Source: Bacteroidetes bacterium HGW-Bacteroidetes-5 (GTDB lineage Bacteria > Bacteroidota > Bacteroidia > Bacteroidales > UBA932). From it: a DNA stretch of 64,000 bases. The notes under the pieces are model-generated. The model was not told the origin of the DNA and did no database searches. It worked only from the letters and a program-made list of their open reading frames with translations. The translations under genes were made by a program, and so were the position numbers. Location: contig PHDC01000001.1 of NCBI GenBank assembly GCA_002842515.1, forward strand, positions 62,001 through 126,000. The letters are read 5' to 3'. Below, one piece after another: positions 3,872 to 19,305 of the stretch (position 1 is its first letter; every line of letters begins with the position of its first letter).

Positions 3872-4615
3872 TTACCTCTCAAAGAGAAGAGTTCCAAAAA
3901 ATTCAGGCCTGTGAAAATCGGGCTTTTCTGTTTTAATTGGGCTCCACGAAAGATAGTGCTTAAGAGGGAGTTCATCACCGCACTTGTAAAAGTTTGCCTT
4001 TAATTCTCTTCCTGCAAGCGACTCTTTTTTCCCGGAATAGAGCAGTTCGATTGGAATTGCAATTGTGATACTCCAGTTGAAGTCCCCCTCTTGTGTCTCA
4101 AATCCCTCTCTCCCCAATGTTGAAACTCGTCTTATTTTTGAAGTTGTGCTTTTATCAAACCGGGTTCTATCTCTTCTTTGGGTGCCGTAGGCAAAGGTAC
4201 CTACACCTATACAATTAAGCTCCAGGTTATAGTATGTAGAGTCGTCATTAGGGAGAATAAAAAACTCCACACAAGAGTCCTTATAGGGTGCAGAACCCTC
4301 ATCAACAGTATATAATGCTCTGATAAATCTCTCGATAACATTATACTGTAGAAAAATCTCATCCTTTGAGTATGCAATTCTGAATTTTACATCAGGAGCG
4401 TAAGGGTATTCGTCCCAATTGAGTTGATCAATTTTATGATAGGGAACAGCCATACTATCCATCATCTTTTGAACCAGTATCATAGGAGGAAGCAGACAGG
4501 GGAAAGAAATTTTCTTTACTGTAATCATTTGTTCTTTAATTAAAGGCTCCTCCTGAGCCATAGTCTCTATTGAGAAGGGAATCAGGAGGAGCAATAATGA
4601 TAAAATCCGAACCAT
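3872..4615 (-). CDS. Exported CBM9/DOMON-like carbohydrate-binding family protein
   Basis: 247 aa with a signal peptide (MVRILSLLLLLIPFSIETMA, cleavage before QEEP). The body follows the pattern of Bacteroidota 'carbohydrate-binding family 9-like' proteins: WDEYPYAPDVKFRIAYS, then RALYTVDEGSAPYKDSCVEFF and YNLELNCIGVGTF. No catalytic motif is seen, so it is probably a periplasmic or surface beta-sandwich of unknown ligand. It ends a minus-strand run behind the sugar MFS transporter (8 bp gap) and the NagB-LmbE fusion, which suggests a role in amino-sugar or oligosaccharide use. It converges with tamL at 14 bp with no visible terminator. Confidence 0.65.
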   Translation of the reverse strand: MVRILSLLLLLIPFSIETMAQEEPLIKEQMITVKKISFPCLLPPMILVQKMMDSMAVPYHKIDQLNWDEYPYAPDVKFRIAYSKDEIFLQYNVIERFIRALYTVDEGSAPYKDSCVEFFILPNDDSTYYNLELNCIGVGTFAYGTQRRDRTRFDKSTTSKIRRVSTLGREGFETQEGDFNWSITIAIPIELLYSGKKESLAGRELKANFYKCGDELPLKHYLSWSPIKTEKPDFHRPEFFGTLLFER

Positions 4616-4623
4616 TCCGGTAC

Positions 4624-5835
4624 TTAATTCACGGTGTTTCTACGTATCTTATAACCGGATACTCCATAATAGAGGATAAAAATATAAATTGGCAGTGCTA
4701 TCCAGTATGAGTTTTGAGCACCAACTGAGTCTTTCAGGAACCCGTAGATGGTTGGGATAACTGCACCTCCTGCTATAGCCATTACTAAAAAAGAGGATCC
4801 TACTTTGGTGAATTTTCCAAGATCTGCAATAGCCAAAGGCCATAGAGCCGGCCACATTAGTGAACAACCAAGTGCCATAAGAGCAATAAACCAGATTGAG
4901 ATGGCAGCCGGGGTAAGAACAACCAGTAATGCGCCTGCAATTCCAAGCAATGAACATATAATCAAGGCATTTGATTGACTAAGGTATTTTGGGATAAATA
5001 CAATACCGCAGATATAACCGATAACCATCCCTACCGGAGAGATCCAGGCGTAAGAGGATGCGTTAGGAAGATTCAATGAGGTTGCATAATCTACAAGAGT
5101 ACCAAGTGCGACAGTCTCCACTCCCACATAGAAGAAGAGAGTCAAGGCGCCAAGCAGAAGGTGTGGAAACTGCCAGATTGAGGTTTTATTTGCGGCATAA
5201 GGGCAATCATCTGCATTTTCGGAATCTTCCCCAACAGCTTTTACCTCAGGAAGAGGTGCGAGTAATGATAAAAGACCAAGAAGTATGAACACCCCAATTA
5301 TTATGTAGAATGGGAGATATAGGTCTGAAATGAGGGTGTCGGTGGTGTTTTTACCTATAACAAATGCCAGAAAAACGGGAGCTACAGGCCAGGCAAGTTT
5401 GTTGCAGATACCCATTATTGACATCCTCTTTGCAGCACTCTCAATTGGCCCCAGAATTGTAATATAGGGGTTAACTGAGGCCTGAAGGAAAGTGTTTGCG
5501 ATACCACTCACAAATGAAGCAATCAGAAAGTAGATAAAATTTCCGCTGCTTGCAGAGGGTATAAATAGGGCAAAAGCAATTGCAAAAAGAAGAAAGGAGA
5601 GTGACATTGTCTTTTTGTAACCAATTTTTGCAATAGTCAGTGCTGCCGGGTAGCCAAAAATTATAAATGTAGAGAATGTGGCTGCAAGAATCAGGTATGA
5701 CGCTCCGGAAGATATATCCAGTGTTCCTTTAAGAACCGGTATAAGAAATGAGTTAATACCCAATGCAAAACCAATTGCAAAGAACATCATTCCAATAAAG
5801 GCTATAGGAATGATAAAGTTACTTTTGTTATTCAT
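4624..5835 (-). CDS. Sugar MFS transporter (FucP/GluP/NagP-like)
   Basis: 403 aa, strongly hydrophobic throughout with about 12 predicted membrane segments; inner-membrane proton symporter type. The opening (FIGMMFFAIGFALGINSFLIPVLKG) and the internal ISPVGMVIGYICG and LMWPALWPLAIADLGKFTK segments are typical of the FHS family, which carries fucose, glucose/galactose or N-acetylglucosamine. It lies 28 bp downstream of the NagB-LmbE gene and 8 bp upstream of the CBM9-like gene, so an amino sugar is the likely cargo (inference). A cytoplasmic loop near residues 195-215 (ENADDCPYAANK) is the longest polar insertion. Confidence 0.82.
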   Translation of the reverse strand: MNNKSNFIIPIAFIGMMFFAIGFALGINSFLIPVLKGTLDISSGASYLILAATFSTFIIFGYPAALTIAKIGYKKTMSLSFLLFAIAFALFIPSASSGNFIYFLIASFVSGIANTFLQASVNPYITILGPIESAAKRMSIMGICNKLAWPVAPVFLAFVIGKNTTDTLISDLYLPFYIIIGVFILLGLLSLLAPLPEVKAVGEDSENADDCPYAANKTSIWQFPHLLLGALTLFFYVGVETVALGTLVDYATSLNLPNASSYAWISPVGMVIGYICGIVFIPKYLSQSNALIICSLLGIAGALLVVLTPAAISIWFIALMALGCSLMWPALWPLAIADLGKFTKVGSSFLVMAIAGGAVIPTIYGFLKDSVGAQNSYWIALPIYIFILYYGVSGYKIRRNTVN

Positions 5836-15925: not shown

Positions 15926-16303
15926 TTACTTTCTCTTTTGGTGTATGCTTTTAGAAATACACTCCATCGGGCACCCCGCTATAGCCTCGTCCAAATCTTC
16001 CAGATATCCTTGAGGCGGATTTATTAAAATTCGGTAGTTTGAGTAAACTGATCCATTAATAAAGTATGGGAATTCATCATCATAAACATCTACAGAGTGA
16101 TATGCAACTCTTTGGCAATTATAACATTTAATGCAATTTGTTACATCAATTGAATATACAGTTGATGTTGATGAAGATGCCATTAACTTATGACTGTAAA
16201 GCACAAAAGATGTCATAATCAAAATTGAGAAAAGTATATAACAAAATCCAGCTTTTTCTTGAATGATCGAAATGATCAAACAACTTTTTTTAGGTTTTTG
16301 CAT
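15926..16303 (-). CDS. Membrane-anchored ferredoxin-like protein with C-x2-C-x2-C ... C-P motif
   Basis: 125 aa. A basic N-terminus (KPKK) precedes one hydrophobic segment at about 21-39, so the C-terminal part is predicted outside the cytoplasm. It carries Cys57-x2-Cys60-x2-Cys63 and a later Cys111-Pro...Cys115, the cysteine plan of a single [4Fe-4S] ferredoxin, but with about 47 residues between the two parts. An Fe-S protein exported unfolded would be unusual, so the cysteines may instead form disulfides or bind another metal. I do not recognise the family. The gene lies behind a leader hairpin whose 3' arm ends 18 nt before the ATG. It probably shares a transcript with the TPR-HTH regulator. 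Confidence 0.6.
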   Translation of the reverse strand: MQKPKKSCLIISIIQEKAGFCYILFSILIMTSFVLYSHKLMASSSTSTVYSIDVTNCIKCYNCQRVAYHSVDVYDDEFPYFINGSVYSNYRILINPPQGYLEDLDEAIAGCPMECISKSIHQKRK

Positions 16304-16321: not shown

Positions 16322-16415
16322 TTGTGGAGATCAACACAGATCTTATTTAATGGCGACTAACCTCAAAACAATTTGCATAAAAATATTATCACATTAACTG
16401 TATTGACCTCCACGA
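16322..16415 (-). promoter_or_regulatory. Leader hairpin 1 with conserved 12-nt loop motif
   Basis: Arms of 18 nt at 16322-16339 and 16398-16415 pair at 15 Watson-Crick positions plus one G-U, with two mismatches; the loop is 58 nt. In the minus-strand transcript the loop carries GGTTAGTCGCCA (16350-16361) on its 3' side. It starts about 20 nt after the TACATTTG element and ends 18 nt before the ferredoxin-like ATG, so it would fill the whole 5' leader. The twin structure at 19067-19158 has unrelated arms but the same loop motif, arm length and position. No U-tract follows, so it is not an obvious terminator. Confidence 0.6.
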
Positions 16416-16435
16416 CACCGGAAACAATGTTATTG

Positions 16436-16443
16436 CAAATGTA
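16436..16443 (-). promoter_or_regulatory. Promoter -7 element (TACATTTG), module copy 1
   Basis: Minus-strand TACATTTG, full match to TAnnTTTG, directing transcription into hairpin 1 and the ferredoxin-like gene. The distance to the proximal operator (37 bp) and to the hairpin (20 bp) are the same, within 1 bp, as in copy 2. Confidence 0.6.
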
Positions 16444-16480
16444 ATGTCGGGATATGAAGAAAAAAAGCTTTTATAAACAG

Positions 16481-16496
16481 GCAGCGCAAAGTTGCG
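16481..16496 (-). promoter_or_regulatory. Proximal operator, module copy 1 (CGCAACTTTGCGCTGC)
   Basis: On the minus strand it reads CGCAAC-TTTG-CGCTGC, two hexamers in direct orientation 10 bp apart (one helical turn). With one more base it also forms the 14-bp palindrome GCGCAACTTTGCGC. It lies 37 bp upstream of the promoter element, about -52 to -67 from the presumed start, a place suited to an activator. Confidence 0.55.
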
Positions 16497-16545
16497 CAAT
16501 TTATCTACATATCTACCTAAAATATAGAAATATAAAGATTGTTAT

Positions 16546-16561
16546 GCAGCGCAAAGTTGCG
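16546..16561 (-). promoter_or_regulatory. Distal operator, module copy 1 (CGCAACTTTGCGCTGC)
   Basis: Identical 16-mer to the proximal site, its start exactly 65 bp further upstream (about six helical turns). It sits just past the stop codon of the histidine-kinase homologue. Confidence 0.55.
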
Positions 16562-16569
16562 CAGAAAAA

Positions 16570-18738
16570 TCAAGAAAGATATCTCTGAGGGAGTGTGAAA
16601 TAAAATTTACTCCCTTTCCCACTTTCACTTTGTGCAAAAATTTTACCTCCCAATCGCTCAATAAACTCTCTGCATAAAAGTAGTCCCAATCCTGCTCCCT
16701 GTTCGTTTTCGGTTCCTGCTGATGCAATCTTTTCTGTAATCTGAAACAGTTTAGATACTCTTTCATCGTCAATACCCACTCCGTTGTCTGTGACAGTAAT
16801 TAAAAGTTCATTCTCATCTGATGATGCGGTTACATTTACACTTCCACCTCTGTAACTATATTTGACTGCATTACTTATTAAATTTCTTAACACAGTATTA
16901 ATCATATGCTTATCCACATAAAGATCTATGTTTTTATCAAATGAGAAATTGAGTTTTATCTCCTTGTTGTTGGCAATACGCTCAATGGAGTCGTTGGCAA
17001 GAATAAAGATGTTTTTTATAGTAGTTCTGTCACTCTCAGCTTCAAGTTTGTTTGTTTGTGACTTAGCCCACTCTGTTAGATTTCCCAGCAACTCATTTGC
17101 AAAGTTTGCAGATTTATTAATTGATTTTAGAAAATCAGACAGAACATCGGGATCAAGTTCTGCCGTCTCTCTTGCCATTAAGCTTGATAGATTTGTTATA
17201 TTATTGAAGGGATCCTGCAAATCGTTTACAATTATTGAAAATAACTTATCTTTTGTTGCGTTTGAGGTGATAAGCTCATTGGATTTTTTCTCAATCTCTC
17301 TCTTCTGCCGTACAAGTTCAATATTGGTTTTACGTTTGTCATAATATGAGTATAATGAGCCTAAAAACAATATAACCAATAAAATAAGACCTGCAATAGT
17401 GAAGTATAAAATGACTTTCATACGCTTCTGTTGCTCTGCCTTAATAATATCCTCTTCATACCTTGCCAAAGCCTGCGCCTGTTTCTCTTTTTCGTACTTA
17501 TACTTGTATTCAAGACTCACTACCTCTTTTATGTTCTCCTCATTAAAAATACTGTCATTCAATTTCTTAAATTGAATATGACTTTCGAAAGCCTTTCTGT
17601 AATTGTTTTTTGCTGAGTGAATTTTTGAGAGCTGCCCGTAACCAACCATCTGATGTTCAAGGATTCCCATCTCGTTTGAAATTGAAAGACTATTTTCAGT
17701 CAACTCAAGAGCTCTCTCTAATTTGCCCAGATCAAAGTAGATATCACCCATTTTTAGGTAAATCTCACTCATAATGTTTTTGCTGCCGGTCTCTTTAGAA
17801 AGTATTAGAGACTGCTCATAGTAATTAAGTGCATCCGGAAATTTGTTCTGTTTTTTGTATAGTGAACCAAAATTATTCATCGAGAGCATCTTTCCAAATT
17901 TGTTTCCCTCTTGTTCCTCTATTTTTAATGCCTTTGAATAGAGATCTGCAGCTTTTAACAGATCATTCTCATCTTCATATATTTTCCCAAGATTATTATA
18001 TAGAGAACCAAGTTTTTTGTTGCTTTTTTGCTCTTCGTAAATTGTCTGAGCTTTTTGATATGAGTCAATTGCAAGCAAATTGTTATTTTGTTTCATATAT
18101 ACTATTCCAAGATTGGTATATATATCTGCAATGAAATTTCTGTCATTAATCTCTTCAGCTATAAGAAGAGCATTTTGCAAATCTTCAGTAGATTTTGGAT
18201 AGTTACCCTGCATTTGATATATTACTCCCATCATTTGGAGACACTCTATCACGTGTCTCTTATCATTGAATTCCAACGCTATATTTCTGCTGTCATAGAA
18301 GAACTCGATAGCTTTTGGGTAGTTACCCATTTGGAAATAGACATAGGCCATATCGCTCCTACAAAAACAGATTCCTCTTTTATCACCAATGTTTTGATAT
18401 ACATTGAGAGATCTCTTATAATAGTCCAGAGACAGGTTGTATTCGAATTTTTCACGAAAATATCTTCCGGTTAATTTCAAGCTGTTTGCCATCCCTTTTT
18501 GGTAGCCGAGGCTATCGCTTAACTGTGAAGATTCCAGTGTGTATTTAAGTGCCATTTCCGGGTTTGTGAGAACCAACTCAGATGCGATCCTATTCATTAA
18601 ATTTACTCTTATTGTGTCTACAGCAGAGTGTGTTTTTAATATTGCTATCAGAGAGTCTGCCTTGTTGTTCTGTCCGAATGACAATATTTGAGTAAAAAGC
18701 AGAAGAATTGCGAAAGATGTTTTTCTAACCATTATCAA
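16570..18738 (-). CDS. TPR histidine-kinase homologue lacking the phospho-accepting histidine
   Basis: 722 aa. Signal peptide (MIMVRKTSFAILLLFTQILSFG), about nine TPR-type repeats over residues 30-400 (predicted periplasmic), a coiled coil, one membrane segment at about 441-462, then a DHp-like and a HATPase domain. Where this group has F-S-I-I-A-H-D-L, this protein reads FSIIVNDLQDPF: Asn505 (AAC, complement of 17224-17226) replaces the His. The ATP-binding domain keeps its N box (NTVLRNLISNAVKYS), DNGVGI, GAGLGL and GGKI. It may therefore bind ATP and act as an allosteric pseudokinase or modulator. No response regulator is nearby. A TATATTTG element lies 64 bp upstream. Confidence 0.85.
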   Translation of the reverse strand: MIMVRKTSFAILLLFTQILSFGQNNKADSLIAILKTHSAVDTIRVNLMNRIASELVLTNPEMALKYTLESSQLSDSLGYQKGMANSLKLTGRYFREKFEYNLSLDYYKRSLNVYQNIGDKRGICFCRSDMAYVYFQMGNYPKAIEFFYDSRNIALEFNDKRHVIECLQMMGVIYQMQGNYPKSTEDLQNALLIAEEINDRNFIADIYTNLGIVYMKQNNNLLAIDSYQKAQTIYEEQKSNKKLGSLYNNLGKIYEDENDLLKAADLYSKALKIEEQEGNKFGKMLSMNNFGSLYKKQNKFPDALNYYEQSLILSKETGSKNIMSEIYLKMGDIYFDLGKLERALELTENSLSISNEMGILEHQMVGYGQLSKIHSAKNNYRKAFESHIQFKKLNDSIFNEENIKEVVSLEYKYKYEKEKQAQALARYEEDIIKAEQQKRMKVILYFTIAGLILLVILFLGSLYSYYDKRKTNIELVRQKREIEKKSNELITSNATKDKLFSIIVNDLQDPFNNITNLSSLMARETAELDPDVLSDFLKSINKSANFANELLGNLTEWAKSQTNKLEAESDRTTIKNIFILANDSIERIANNKEIKLNFSFDKNIDLYVDKHMINTVLRNLISNAVKYSYRGGSVNVTASSDENELLITVTDNGVGIDDERVSKLFQITEKIASAGTENEQGAGLGLLLCREFIERLGGKIFAQSESGKGSKFYFTLPQRYLS

Positions 18739-18801
18739 TCTTTGAAATTAGCTTACTTTGGCCCTATTAAGGCATATTATATGGATATTAGGCCTTATAT
18801 G

Positions 18802-18809
18802 CAAATATA
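18802..18809 (-). promoter_or_regulatory. Promoter -7 element (TATATTTG) for the kinase homologue
   Basis: Minus-strand TATATTTG, 64 bp before the ATG at 18738. It would allow the kinase homologue to be expressed apart from the upstream 45-aa ORF. The leader has a short TAAGGC/GCCTTA repeat of doubtful meaning. Confidence 0.45.
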
Positions 18810-18890
18810 AAGATTTATTCATTGCAGACTGCACTAGGAAACCTGCAAAGATTAATTGTGTTTGAGAGCTTTTTTTCTAATGGGAAAGTA

Positions 18891-19028
18891 TTACCTGGAT
18901 TGGTTGGTAATAGTATTAGGTTGGCATTTTGTAAAATAGACATTCATTCTGTATGTGATAAAAGAGATAACTGCAACCAAGCCTAATATGAGTAATAAGA
19001 GCCGGGGATTGAATTTTACTTTTAACAT
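18891..19028 (-). CDS. 45-aa single-pass membrane peptide (unrecognised small ORF)
   Basis: ATG at 19028, stop TAA at 18891. The peptide starts MLKVKFNPR, has one hydrophobic helix at about residues 9-24 (LLLLILGLVAVISFIT), then a short polar tail with one Cys (YFTKCQPNTITNQSR). The basic N-terminus predicts N-in, C-out. It is the first ORF behind leader hairpin 2, starting 38 nt after the 3' arm, just as the ferredoxin-like gene follows hairpin 1. The kinase homologue starts 152 bp downstream. I do not recognise a family. Support comes from position and composition only. Confidence 0.45.
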   Translation of the reverse strand: MLKVKFNPRLLLLILGLVAVISFITYRMNVYFTKCQPNTITNQSR

Positions 19029-19066
19029 AATTGTGAAAGTTAATTACAACAAATAATCATAGAAAC

Positions 19067-19158
19067 AGAAATCATTATAACACTTGGTGGCCATTGGCGA
19101 CTAACCTTTAAAACTGCTGAATTAATATTTTATTACTACCAGTGTTATAATGATTTCT
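19067..19158 (-). promoter_or_regulatory. Leader hairpin 2, perfect 18-bp arms, conserved 12-nt loop motif
   Basis: AGAAATCATTATAACACT at 19067-19084 is exactly complementary to 19141-19158, around a 56-nt loop. In transcript sense the loop holds GGTTAGTCGCCA (19094-19105), identical to the motif of hairpin 1. It begins 21 nt after TAAATTTG and ends 38 nt before the 45-aa ORF. The arms share no sequence with those of hairpin 1, yet length, loop size and motif are kept, as expected if the fold is selected. Confidence 0.65.
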
Positions 19159-19179
19159 ATCTTTTCATTATCATCGATG

Positions 19180-19187
19180 CAAATTTA
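19180..19187 (-). promoter_or_regulatory. Promoter -7 element (TAAATTTG), module copy 2
   Basis: Minus-strand TAAATTTG, full TAnnTTTG match, with a TTGAC about 22 bp upstream as a loose -33 element. It drives hairpin 2 and the 45-aa ORF. Confidence 0.6.
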
Positions 19188-19224: not shown

Positions 19225-19240
19225 GTTGCGAAAAGTTGCG
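19225..19240 (-). promoter_or_regulatory. Proximal operator, module copy 2 (CGCAACTTTTCGCAAC)
   Basis: Minus strand CGCAAC-TTTT-CGCAAC: two perfect direct hexamers 10 bp apart. It sits 37 bp upstream of the promoter element, the same as in copy 1. Because the second hexamer repeats rather than inverts the first, this site favours direct-repeat recognition over a simple palindrome. Confidence 0.55.
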
Positions 19241-19289: not shown

Positions 19290-19305
19290 GCAGCGTTTTG
19301 TTGCG
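19290..19305 (-). promoter_or_regulatory. Distal operator, module copy 2 (CGCAACAAAACGCTGC)
   Basis: Minus strand CGCAAC-AAAA-CGCTGC. Starts exactly 65 bp upstream of the proximal site, as in copy 1. The central four bases vary among sites (TTTG, TTTT, AAAA) while the hexamers are kept, consistent with protein contacts in the hexamers. Confidence 0.55.

Follow-up and report, generated by a model that had tools for sequence, protein, structure and literature searches.

The window, by which we mean the whole 64-kb stretch of DNA analysed, carries on its minus strand two predicted promoters that each lead into a long hairpin (A and B; Table 1). Hairpin A precedes a gene for a ferredoxin-like protein and, adjoining it, one for a putative regulator of the lipoprotein-TPR-transmembrane-HTH type. 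Between hairpin B and the gene for a sensor histidine kinase lies a 45-aa ORF (18891-19028), and element B is without a regulator gene of its own.

Table 1 Features of the two hairpin loci
Feature	Position	Strand	Remarks
Lipoprotein-TPR-TM-HTH regulator, 548 aa	14216..15862	minus	adjoins ferredoxin gene; arrangement conserved
Ferredoxin-like protein, 125 aa	15926..16303	minus	N-terminal signal or anchor (by eye)
Hairpin A, long-stem RNA	16322..16415	minus	5′ arm 16398-16413, 3′ arm 16324-16339
GGTTAGTC core, loop of A	16355..16362	minus	common to all 11 aligned elements
Element A promoter, -7 element TACATTTG	16436..16443	minus	matches TAnnTTTG; predicted from sequence
Element A proximal operator CGCAACTTTGCGCTGC	16481..16496	minus	53 bp upstream of promoter element
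Element A distal operator CGCAACTTTGCGCTGC	16546..16561	minus	same sequence as proximal; 65 bp start-to-start
TPR sensor histidine kinase, 720 aa	16570..18732	minus	HATPase and TPR domains
Small protein, 45 aa	18891..19028	minus	single TM (by eye); first ORF past hairpin B
Hairpin B, long-stem RNA	19063..19162	minus	perfect 18-pair core 19067-19084/19141-19158
GGTTAGTC core, loop of B	19099..19106	minus	common to all 11 aligned elements
Element B promoter, -7 element TAAATTTG	19180..19187	minus	lies 53 bp past start of proximal operator
Element B proximal operator CGCAACTTTTCGCAAC	19225..19240	minus	65 bp from distal operator
Element B distal operator CGCAACAAAACGCTGC	19290..19305	minus	partner 65 bp away

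The ferredoxin-like protein has orthologues in G016 and G008 (65%) and is more remotely related to proteins from G009 and the C-group genomes; five cysteines are invariant across eight sequences. Two of the relatives in group C score above the Pfam cut-off for Fer4_13, and the D relative above that for Fer4_15; the window protein lies below both. Among 23 members of the regulator family, matches at E 0.01 include TPR_12 (18), Sigma70_r4_2 (5), and GerE (4), while the window regulator alone gives a weak TPR_12 match (E 0.0085) and no HTH match. The 45-aa ORF has equal-length counterparts in two other species (G016 and G008), and the N-terminus of its product is similar, by eye, to that of the G009 ferredoxin-like protein. 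The kinase gene, preceded by a promoter-like TATATTTG (by eye), has 86% orthologues only in G008 and G016 among 25 genomes of the genus.

Both hairpins, placed by the sequence-only reading at 16322-16415 and 19067-19158, are real, lie on the minus strand, and exceed chance: their folding z-scores are -5.7 (A) and -6.0 (B), and none of 200 shuffles folded as well as either. These values, together with the control loci described below, all argue against a chance origin. The arms of B are perfect as described, 18 nt around 56 nt, and extend to 22 pairs when G-U is counted; those of A, also given as 18 nt, contain a 16-pair core with two G-U pairs but a mismatch at either end. Matches to TAnnTTTG, the B. 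fragilis promoter consensus as quoted in PMC7366714, lie 20 and 21 nt upstream of the hairpins, in agreement with the distances first reported. The 12-nt motif GGTTAGTCGCCA does occur exactly in both loops, and at no other site in the 2.8-Mb assembly, but only eight of its nucleotides, GGTTAGTC, are kept in all 11 copies of the element.

The key to the identity of the hairpins is a feature absent from the earlier reading, namely the pair of operators upstream of each promoter. In 11/11 elements, paired 16-bp putative operators are spaced 65 bp apart and the stem lies 3′ of the promoter, which in ten elements stands 53 bp past the second operator; the eleventh (G023) has TAATTTAG at the promoter position, which the pattern does not catch. 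The proximal operator of B is conserved at 59% only.

The 11 copies of the GGTTAGTC type, recovered by covariance, protein, and pattern searches, are found in 8 of the 25 genus genomes. A covariance model of A and B, the search that had been proposed as a test with a lack of further, compensating copies as its refutation, matched 4/99 genomes including the window's own, all within the genus; the fold passed because five further copies were found and the enlarged set covaries. A pattern of operators 65 bp apart with TTAGTC at the right distance also gave 11 elements in 8/25 genus genomes, against one match for the reversed control, and in a sample of 393 genomes of the order the operator pattern with GGTTAGTC matched the window's own genome only (control matches, 1). 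Over all GTDB contigs the composite pattern matched ten, seven of them from the genus. Outside it, only three foreign contigs were found, and these are without the stem (stems of 8-10, vs 15-20 in three genus contigs scored alongside). The operator pattern has no match in viral contigs, which speaks against a viral origin; 24 looser viral matches were used as control sequence.

When the 11 copies (groups A to D) are aligned, 92.5% of cells are paired and 13/17 pairs are altered on both sides with pairing kept, compared with 0-5 in slid controls; the alignment of group F, described below, has 20 pairs, nine of them changed on both sides. Such compensatory changes are those sought in a structured cis-regulatory or small RNA, and they uphold the selected RNA fold proposed earlier. 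RNAalifold, unprompted, gives the same stem for the 11 rows. The count of pair types is unexceptional (matched by 93/500 shuffles), and the stems of A_G016 (11) and C_G001 (15) are no better than the best of 150 shuffles. Within groups the leaders are 83-95% identical, vs 52-74% for spacers and 53-61% just past the hairpin. To call the arms unrelated was too strong, since 6/16 aligned A-B pairs are identical and, with 11 copies aligned, B, C, and D have a GAAATCA/TGRTTTC-like sequence in common in their outer arms, which look homologous. A coding leader was rejected on 1-nt indels between close relatives in the A and F loops. The only long invariant stretch of the A-D loops is 8 nt, little for a riboswitch aptamer core, and a conserved partner of GGTTAGTC within the transcript was also rejected, no position being common to all 11 copies and single positions recurring, at most, in two copies from the same group.

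Long-stem RNAs also adjoin the paralogous regulators. Across the genus, 21 of 28 full-length lipoprotein-TPR-membrane-HTH regulators have one alongside, mostly with operators at 64/65 bp, and the window's own genome holds a second long-stem RNA beside a TPR-HTH regulator. A scan of 39 loci added nine, beside paralogous regulators, at which operators and promoter accompany a stem score of at least 13 (matches below that stem score being left out), vs 0.33 in shuffled sets. The composite scan was negative on 76 control loci (384 kb) and found only A and B in the window; it overlooks three of nine known elements in the scanned loci (B_G016, B_G008, and C_G023). Within a range of 40-120 bp the best operator lag is 64/65 in 14/17 loci, most of which were first noticed through that lag; the 14 include all four F loci (G000, G016, G009, and G019), which were chosen independently of lag and of which some have small margins (13 v 12, 12 v 11). 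For group H, 64 is the best lag in one of four.

Homology of the GGTTAGTC RNAs with groups E to H is suggested by this layout and by short similarities, GATTAGTC in G018 and GGTTAGTT in E; the F core sits elsewhere in the loop. At 11/13 E, F, and H loci the next ORF of at least 60 codons is convergent, so that none follows the RNA on the same strand, and the RNA itself is therefore likely the product. The RNA of F_G002 is overlapped by a same-strand frame of 82 aa. Four regulators (G017:C4, G000:C4, G010:2508074, and G006:C14) have operators and promoter without a long stem, which indicates that the regulator can do without the RNA; at G010:2508074 and G006:C14 a ferredoxin gene directly follows the promoter. 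Nothing was found alongside 3/28 regulators, and a G011 locus (L218) with a stem of 24 and a poor operator match (10/16) was left out of the counts.

The stem and its covariation, the sense preference, the rigid geometry, the regulator linkage, and the gene-less copies can all be read from the DNA, and they suggest that the hairpin probably functions as a regulatory RNA controlled by its own dedicated membrane regulator, doubling in the window as a 5′ UTR. The earlier label of leader element is probably only part of the matter, given the paralogous units with no gene behind. That the hairpins are structured RNA products of promoters run by this TPR-HTH regulator we rate at about even odds. The regulator would expose a lipoprotein TPR sensor outside, span the membrane by a helix, and carry a GerE/sigma-4-type HTH inside; it would sense something in the envelope and bind a head-to-tail operator pair with 64/65-bp spacing, located at a near-fixed distance before the -7 element. 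The transcript would begin shortly ahead of a 13-24 bp stem closing a loop of 22-80 nt. We infer transcription, operator binding, and action of the RNA in trans on targets of its own. Where gene-less (E, F, and H) it would act alone as a regulatory RNA, and elsewhere it would form the 5′ part of an mRNA, for the ferredoxin-like protein in A, C, and D, the 45-aa protein in B, and a peroxiredoxin in G, from which processing may also free it.

A purely cis-acting leader, whose stem and loop would set how well the ferredoxin-like mRNA is translated or how stable it is by binding a protein, an sRNA, or a ligand, with the gene-less copies being separate or decayed, is the strongest alternative, although we consider it unlikely. 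The A, C, and D copies lie upstream of the ferredoxin-like and regulator genes, with stems ending 18-72 nt before the ferredoxin-like ATG, and all eight genus genomes with a strong ferredoxin match (E below 1e-10) carry the element; three weaker matches (L081, L083, and L084) have no stem above 13 within the stretch scanned. On folding, several copies, though not all, place the core in a hairpin loop or in a GGU-UAGUC-RCC ministem. Yet the 11/13 loci with no same-strand gene behind keep operators, promoter, and, in F, the covarying stem, and the G010 and G006 ferredoxins lack a stem.

Less probable still is an attenuator or terminator that halts transcription before the gene unless prevented. 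T-rich runs do stand, by eye, behind the stems of C (e.g., TTTTATTTTTTT in G023), F_G002 (TTTTTATTTTT), and E (CTATTTTT), but A, B, and D have none, the loops are long for the intrinsic type, a terminator scan (loops of 3-8 only) flags neither window hairpin, and in H an ordinary stem-loop with a T run lies past the long stem. An element acting as DNA, be it a site of protein binding or cruciform formation or a repeat of the mobile or attC-like kind, would fit the rigid, DNA-like operator spacing, the few places per genome, and the two of 11 stems that pair better in antisense, but it is highly improbable, for the stem is longer in sense in 9/11 copies, the promoter-to-core distance ranges over 80-83 while operator distances are constant, and neither a third copy in the window's own genome (covariance model R1) nor a viral one by operator pattern was found. 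The strand comparison, unbiased as to length, likewise counts against a DNA-only palindrome; the 20 G-U vs 1 A-C in the stems is a biased count, because the stem finder permitted G-U. An attC-like site was considered and set aside.

Under the preferred reading of an RNA made by a regulator-controlled promoter, it is conceivable, if somewhat less than evenly likely, that the genus has expanded private sensor-RNA pairs, each TPR-HTH sensor having its own trans-acting long-stem RNA with fast-diverging paired arms and repeated joining to redox genes (ferredoxin, peroxiredoxin) as their 5′ part. The apparent production of the hairpins from fixed-layout promoters near membrane sensor genes hints that RNAs under signal control may form a new set here. 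A structured RNA family that seems not to have been described, and for which a probable regulator and operator code are already available, would thereby be added to a phylum, Bacteroidota, whose RNA biology is thinly known. The rigid layout of 64/65 and 53 bp makes copies easy to find, and one layout with and without a gene behind would show a regulatory RNA becoming, or stemming from, an mRNA leader.

In agreement with the earlier statement that no described RNA of this plan was known, Rfam 15 gave no match in the window above the gathering threshold, two tRNAs and nothing else on 13 related loci, and, in permissive scans of both hairpins, only matches far below the cut-offs (best E 0.042). 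The search for the family in print was limited to open-access literature, where it was not found; by title there was no bacterial-RNA paper for GGUUAGUC, and nothing related to a TPR/HTH/RNA link in Bacteroidetes was evident. The hairpins appear to belong to an undescribed structured-RNA family in one uncultured Bacteroidales genus, candidates being compared by description. HMP2_4205, a palindromic human-microbiome candidate of 132 bp, is mostly from Bacteroidetes and commonly near TPR genes, and is called a predicted Rho-independent terminator; the section devoted to it mentions no operators, promoter, or regulator (PMC8040213). The Bacteroidetes candidates Bacteroidales-1, Bacteroides-1, Bacteroid-trp, and 6S-flavo (PMC2864571) come from the same phylum and are structured like A and B, and no Rfam model matches the window. 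FopS and GibS, Bacteroides sRNAs of which FopS is multicopy, act with the RRM protein RbpB (PMC11697453) and resemble the hairpins, by description, as Bacteroidales RNAs. Unlike that pairing, RRM_1 presence does not track the element: 23/25 genus genomes have RRM_1, and in two of the eight carriers, both incomplete, none was seen, so an RRM protein was rejected as partner for want of a positive association. In sensor-controlled sRNAs, such as those regulated by two-component systems, an envelope signal leads to transcription of an RNA. Here, by comparison, a single membrane regulator encoded beside its RNA is proposed to play that part through two operators 64/65 bp apart.

The 12-nt motif that the sequence-only reading had placed in the loops of both minus-strand long hairpins of the window (A and B) proved specific to them, as the 12-mer GGTTAGTCGCCA is confined to these two loops across the whole assembly. 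The assembly holds 81 sites within two mismatches of GGTTAGTCGCCA; among the 30 inspected for stems, none besides A and B themselves carries a comparable one (best 10). The same reading had taken the paired arms of the two copies as a sign of a selected fold, and a covariance search of 99 genomes built from A and B recovered both and five further copies in three congeneric genomes: A/B pairs in G008 and G016 and a single copy (D) in G009. Four more (group C; G001, G014, G015, and G023) were reached with a profile built on the ferredoxin-like protein encoded downstream. Their arms differ in sequence and their core, GGTTAGTC, is identical to that of the other groups. The covariance model R2 scores them at 20–25 bits, no higher than some scores it gives to A, B, and D in antisense (19–33), so it is layout, core, and stem, and not the model, that place these four copies in the family.

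Long-stem RNAs of the source genome (window coordinates unless a contig is named)
Feature	Position	Strand	Remarks
Hairpin A	16322-16415	minus	fold z -5.7, far better than shuffles
Hairpin B	19067-19158	minus	fold z -6.0, far better than shuffles
Second long-stem RNA of the genome, group F	G000:C1:741437-741557 (L197:4814-4934)		outside the window; between TPR-HTH gene and convergent tricorn-type peptidase gene

In an 11-row MAFFT alignment of these copies, which was not structure-guided and in which kinship among rows inflates pairing and covariation counts, 92.5% of 187 cells are paired (reached by 0/500 shuffles) and 13 of 17 pairs show changes on both sides (equalled by 1/500). Shifting the partner by 1–3 columns lowers pairing to 36–48%, and RNAalifold recovers the same stem, with 18 pairs; the number of pair types is unexceptional (reached by 93/500 shuffles). 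Nine of the eleven stems lie above all 150 of their shuffles, the exceptions being A in G016 (11) and C in G001 (15), and sense pairing exceeds antisense pairing in nine, with the reverse in A of G016 and C of G015. Leader identity (83–95%) is about equal to that of the operators (85–97%; only 59% for the proximal operator of B), and the spacers and the stretch behind the leader are less conserved than the leader.

Each copy follows a pair of operators, composed of CGCAAC and a second half-site ~10 bp further, that are spaced 65 bp apart in 11/11 cases. The -7 promoter element lies 53 bp after the second operator in ten copies, in which the promoter-to-core distance is 80–83; the exception, TAATTTAG in G023, falls outside the pattern. 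A pattern of operators plus TTAGTC returned exactly these 11 copies, in 8 of the 25 genus genomes, and the operator pair alone added, genus-wide, one site in G017 immediately after the gene of a paralogous regulator, with none in the control. Operators plus GGTTAGTC matched the source genome alone in an order-level sample of 393 genomes, nothing in viral contigs, and ten of all GTDB contigs: seven matching the other seven carrier genomes of this genus (HGW-Bacteroidetes-7 and -8, UBA5548, Rikenellaceae UBA12406, and three Bacteroidales MAGs) and three foreign contigs, in which the long stem is absent.

Downstream of groups A, C, and D come first a ferredoxin-like gene and next the gene of a regulator that has a lipoprotein-like N-terminus and a membrane helix (by eye), TPR matches, and, in some members, HTH matches; the G009 regulator is broken by contig ends. 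The ferredoxin-like proteins of A and D (window 15926-16303; L102:8338-8688) appear by eye to have a signal or membrane anchor at the N-terminus, which is unusual for an iron-sulphur protein, and the C-group homologues appear to have none. Behind B lie a 45-aa protein and a TPR kinase, 86% orthologues of which are confined, among the 25 genus genomes, to the two other A/B genomes. The 45-aa protein (window 18891-19028) has equal length in three species and resembles what the G009 ferredoxin-like gene encodes at its N-terminal end, minus the ferredoxin domain; element B may have arisen by duplication of the promoter, leader, and N-terminus of the ferredoxin gene. The A/B loci adjoin ilv-like genes, and in the neighbourhood of three C-group loci (L096, L097, and L099) are a leuB-like gene and divergent AraC-like regulators that bear a Cys motif at the N-terminus (by eye).

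A scan around paralogues found similar operator-promoter-stem units beside many paralogous regulators. Composite matches with a stem of at least 13 numbered nine beyond A–D, leaving out one in G011, against 0.33 in shuffled sets and 0 in 76 control loci, in a scan that missed 3/9 known elements in covered loci. The omitted locus (L218, G011:C1) has a stem score of 24 after a promoter-like site, a poor 65-bp repeat, and a distant TPR protein nearby. The genus holds 28 full-length regulators of this type (E ≤1.3e-152; G035, from another genus, excluded), and long-stem RNAs adjoin 21 of them (three in group A, four in C, two in E, seven in F, one in G, and four in H), a count that includes F in G009 and A in G016 via alignment (stem score <13) and F in G005 with a 13-pair stem and no recognised promoter. 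Four others (G017:C4, G000:C4, G010, and G006) have operators and a promoter-like site and no long stem; no RNA, operators, or promoter were found beside the remaining three. With the operator lag left free over 40–120 bp, 64/65 was best in 14/17 loci, most of which had first been noticed through that lag; the F loci of G000, G016, G009, and G019 had not, and there 64 was best in 4/4. Group F shows covariation in nine of 20 pairs, and five of its six aligned rows share the loop GTCATGATAA; both cores are joined in G018 (GATTAGTCATGATAA). The common layout suggests, short of proof, that A–D and E–H form one homologous RNA family.

In groups E, F, and H the regulator gene precedes the RNA on the same strand, and at 11/13 such loci the next ORF of at least 60 codons is convergent, for example a tricorn-type S41 peptidase (G000) or a GDSL lipase-like protein (G020); of the other two, L195 and L191, the latter ends too soon. 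A same-strand 82-aa frame overlaps the G002 RNA, a stem-loop bearing a T run lies downstream of the long stem in H, and the G RNA (G017:C32) precedes an AhpC/TSA peroxiredoxin. Among loci with other arrangements, L167 (G017:C4, ~4420-4740) has an operator pair identical to that of A, followed by a short stretch that appears to be non-coding and contains both a different hairpin (GAGTTAGCC) and a strong terminator-like stem-loop. L203 and L204 (G010 and G006) carry another operator sequence (AACTTACCGCTCC), 65 bp apart, directly upstream of a ferredoxin ORF (Fer4_13 match in G010) without a long stem, and at L168 (G000:C4), the third TPR-HTH locus of the source genome, operators 64 bp apart precede an envelope-protein-like ORF (by eye), again with no long stem.

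This organization suggests a circuit in which an envelope signal would reach the membrane regulator, which would bind the two operators and activate its own RNA promoter; operator centres near -60 and -125, as calculated from the -7 element, would be compatible with an activator. The RNA itself would be the working product, acting on putative targets, and in A–D and G the transcript would continue from the RNA into the gene.

The sequence-only reading knew of no described RNA element of this plan, in agreement with Rfam, which gives no match. The closest published item found, compared by its description, is HMP2_4205, a palindromic Bacteroidetes candidate that is associated with TPR genes and classed in that study as a terminator (PMC8040213). 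We rate the long-stem RNA as a new form within an already known class, structured regulatory RNAs that have a sensor of their own.
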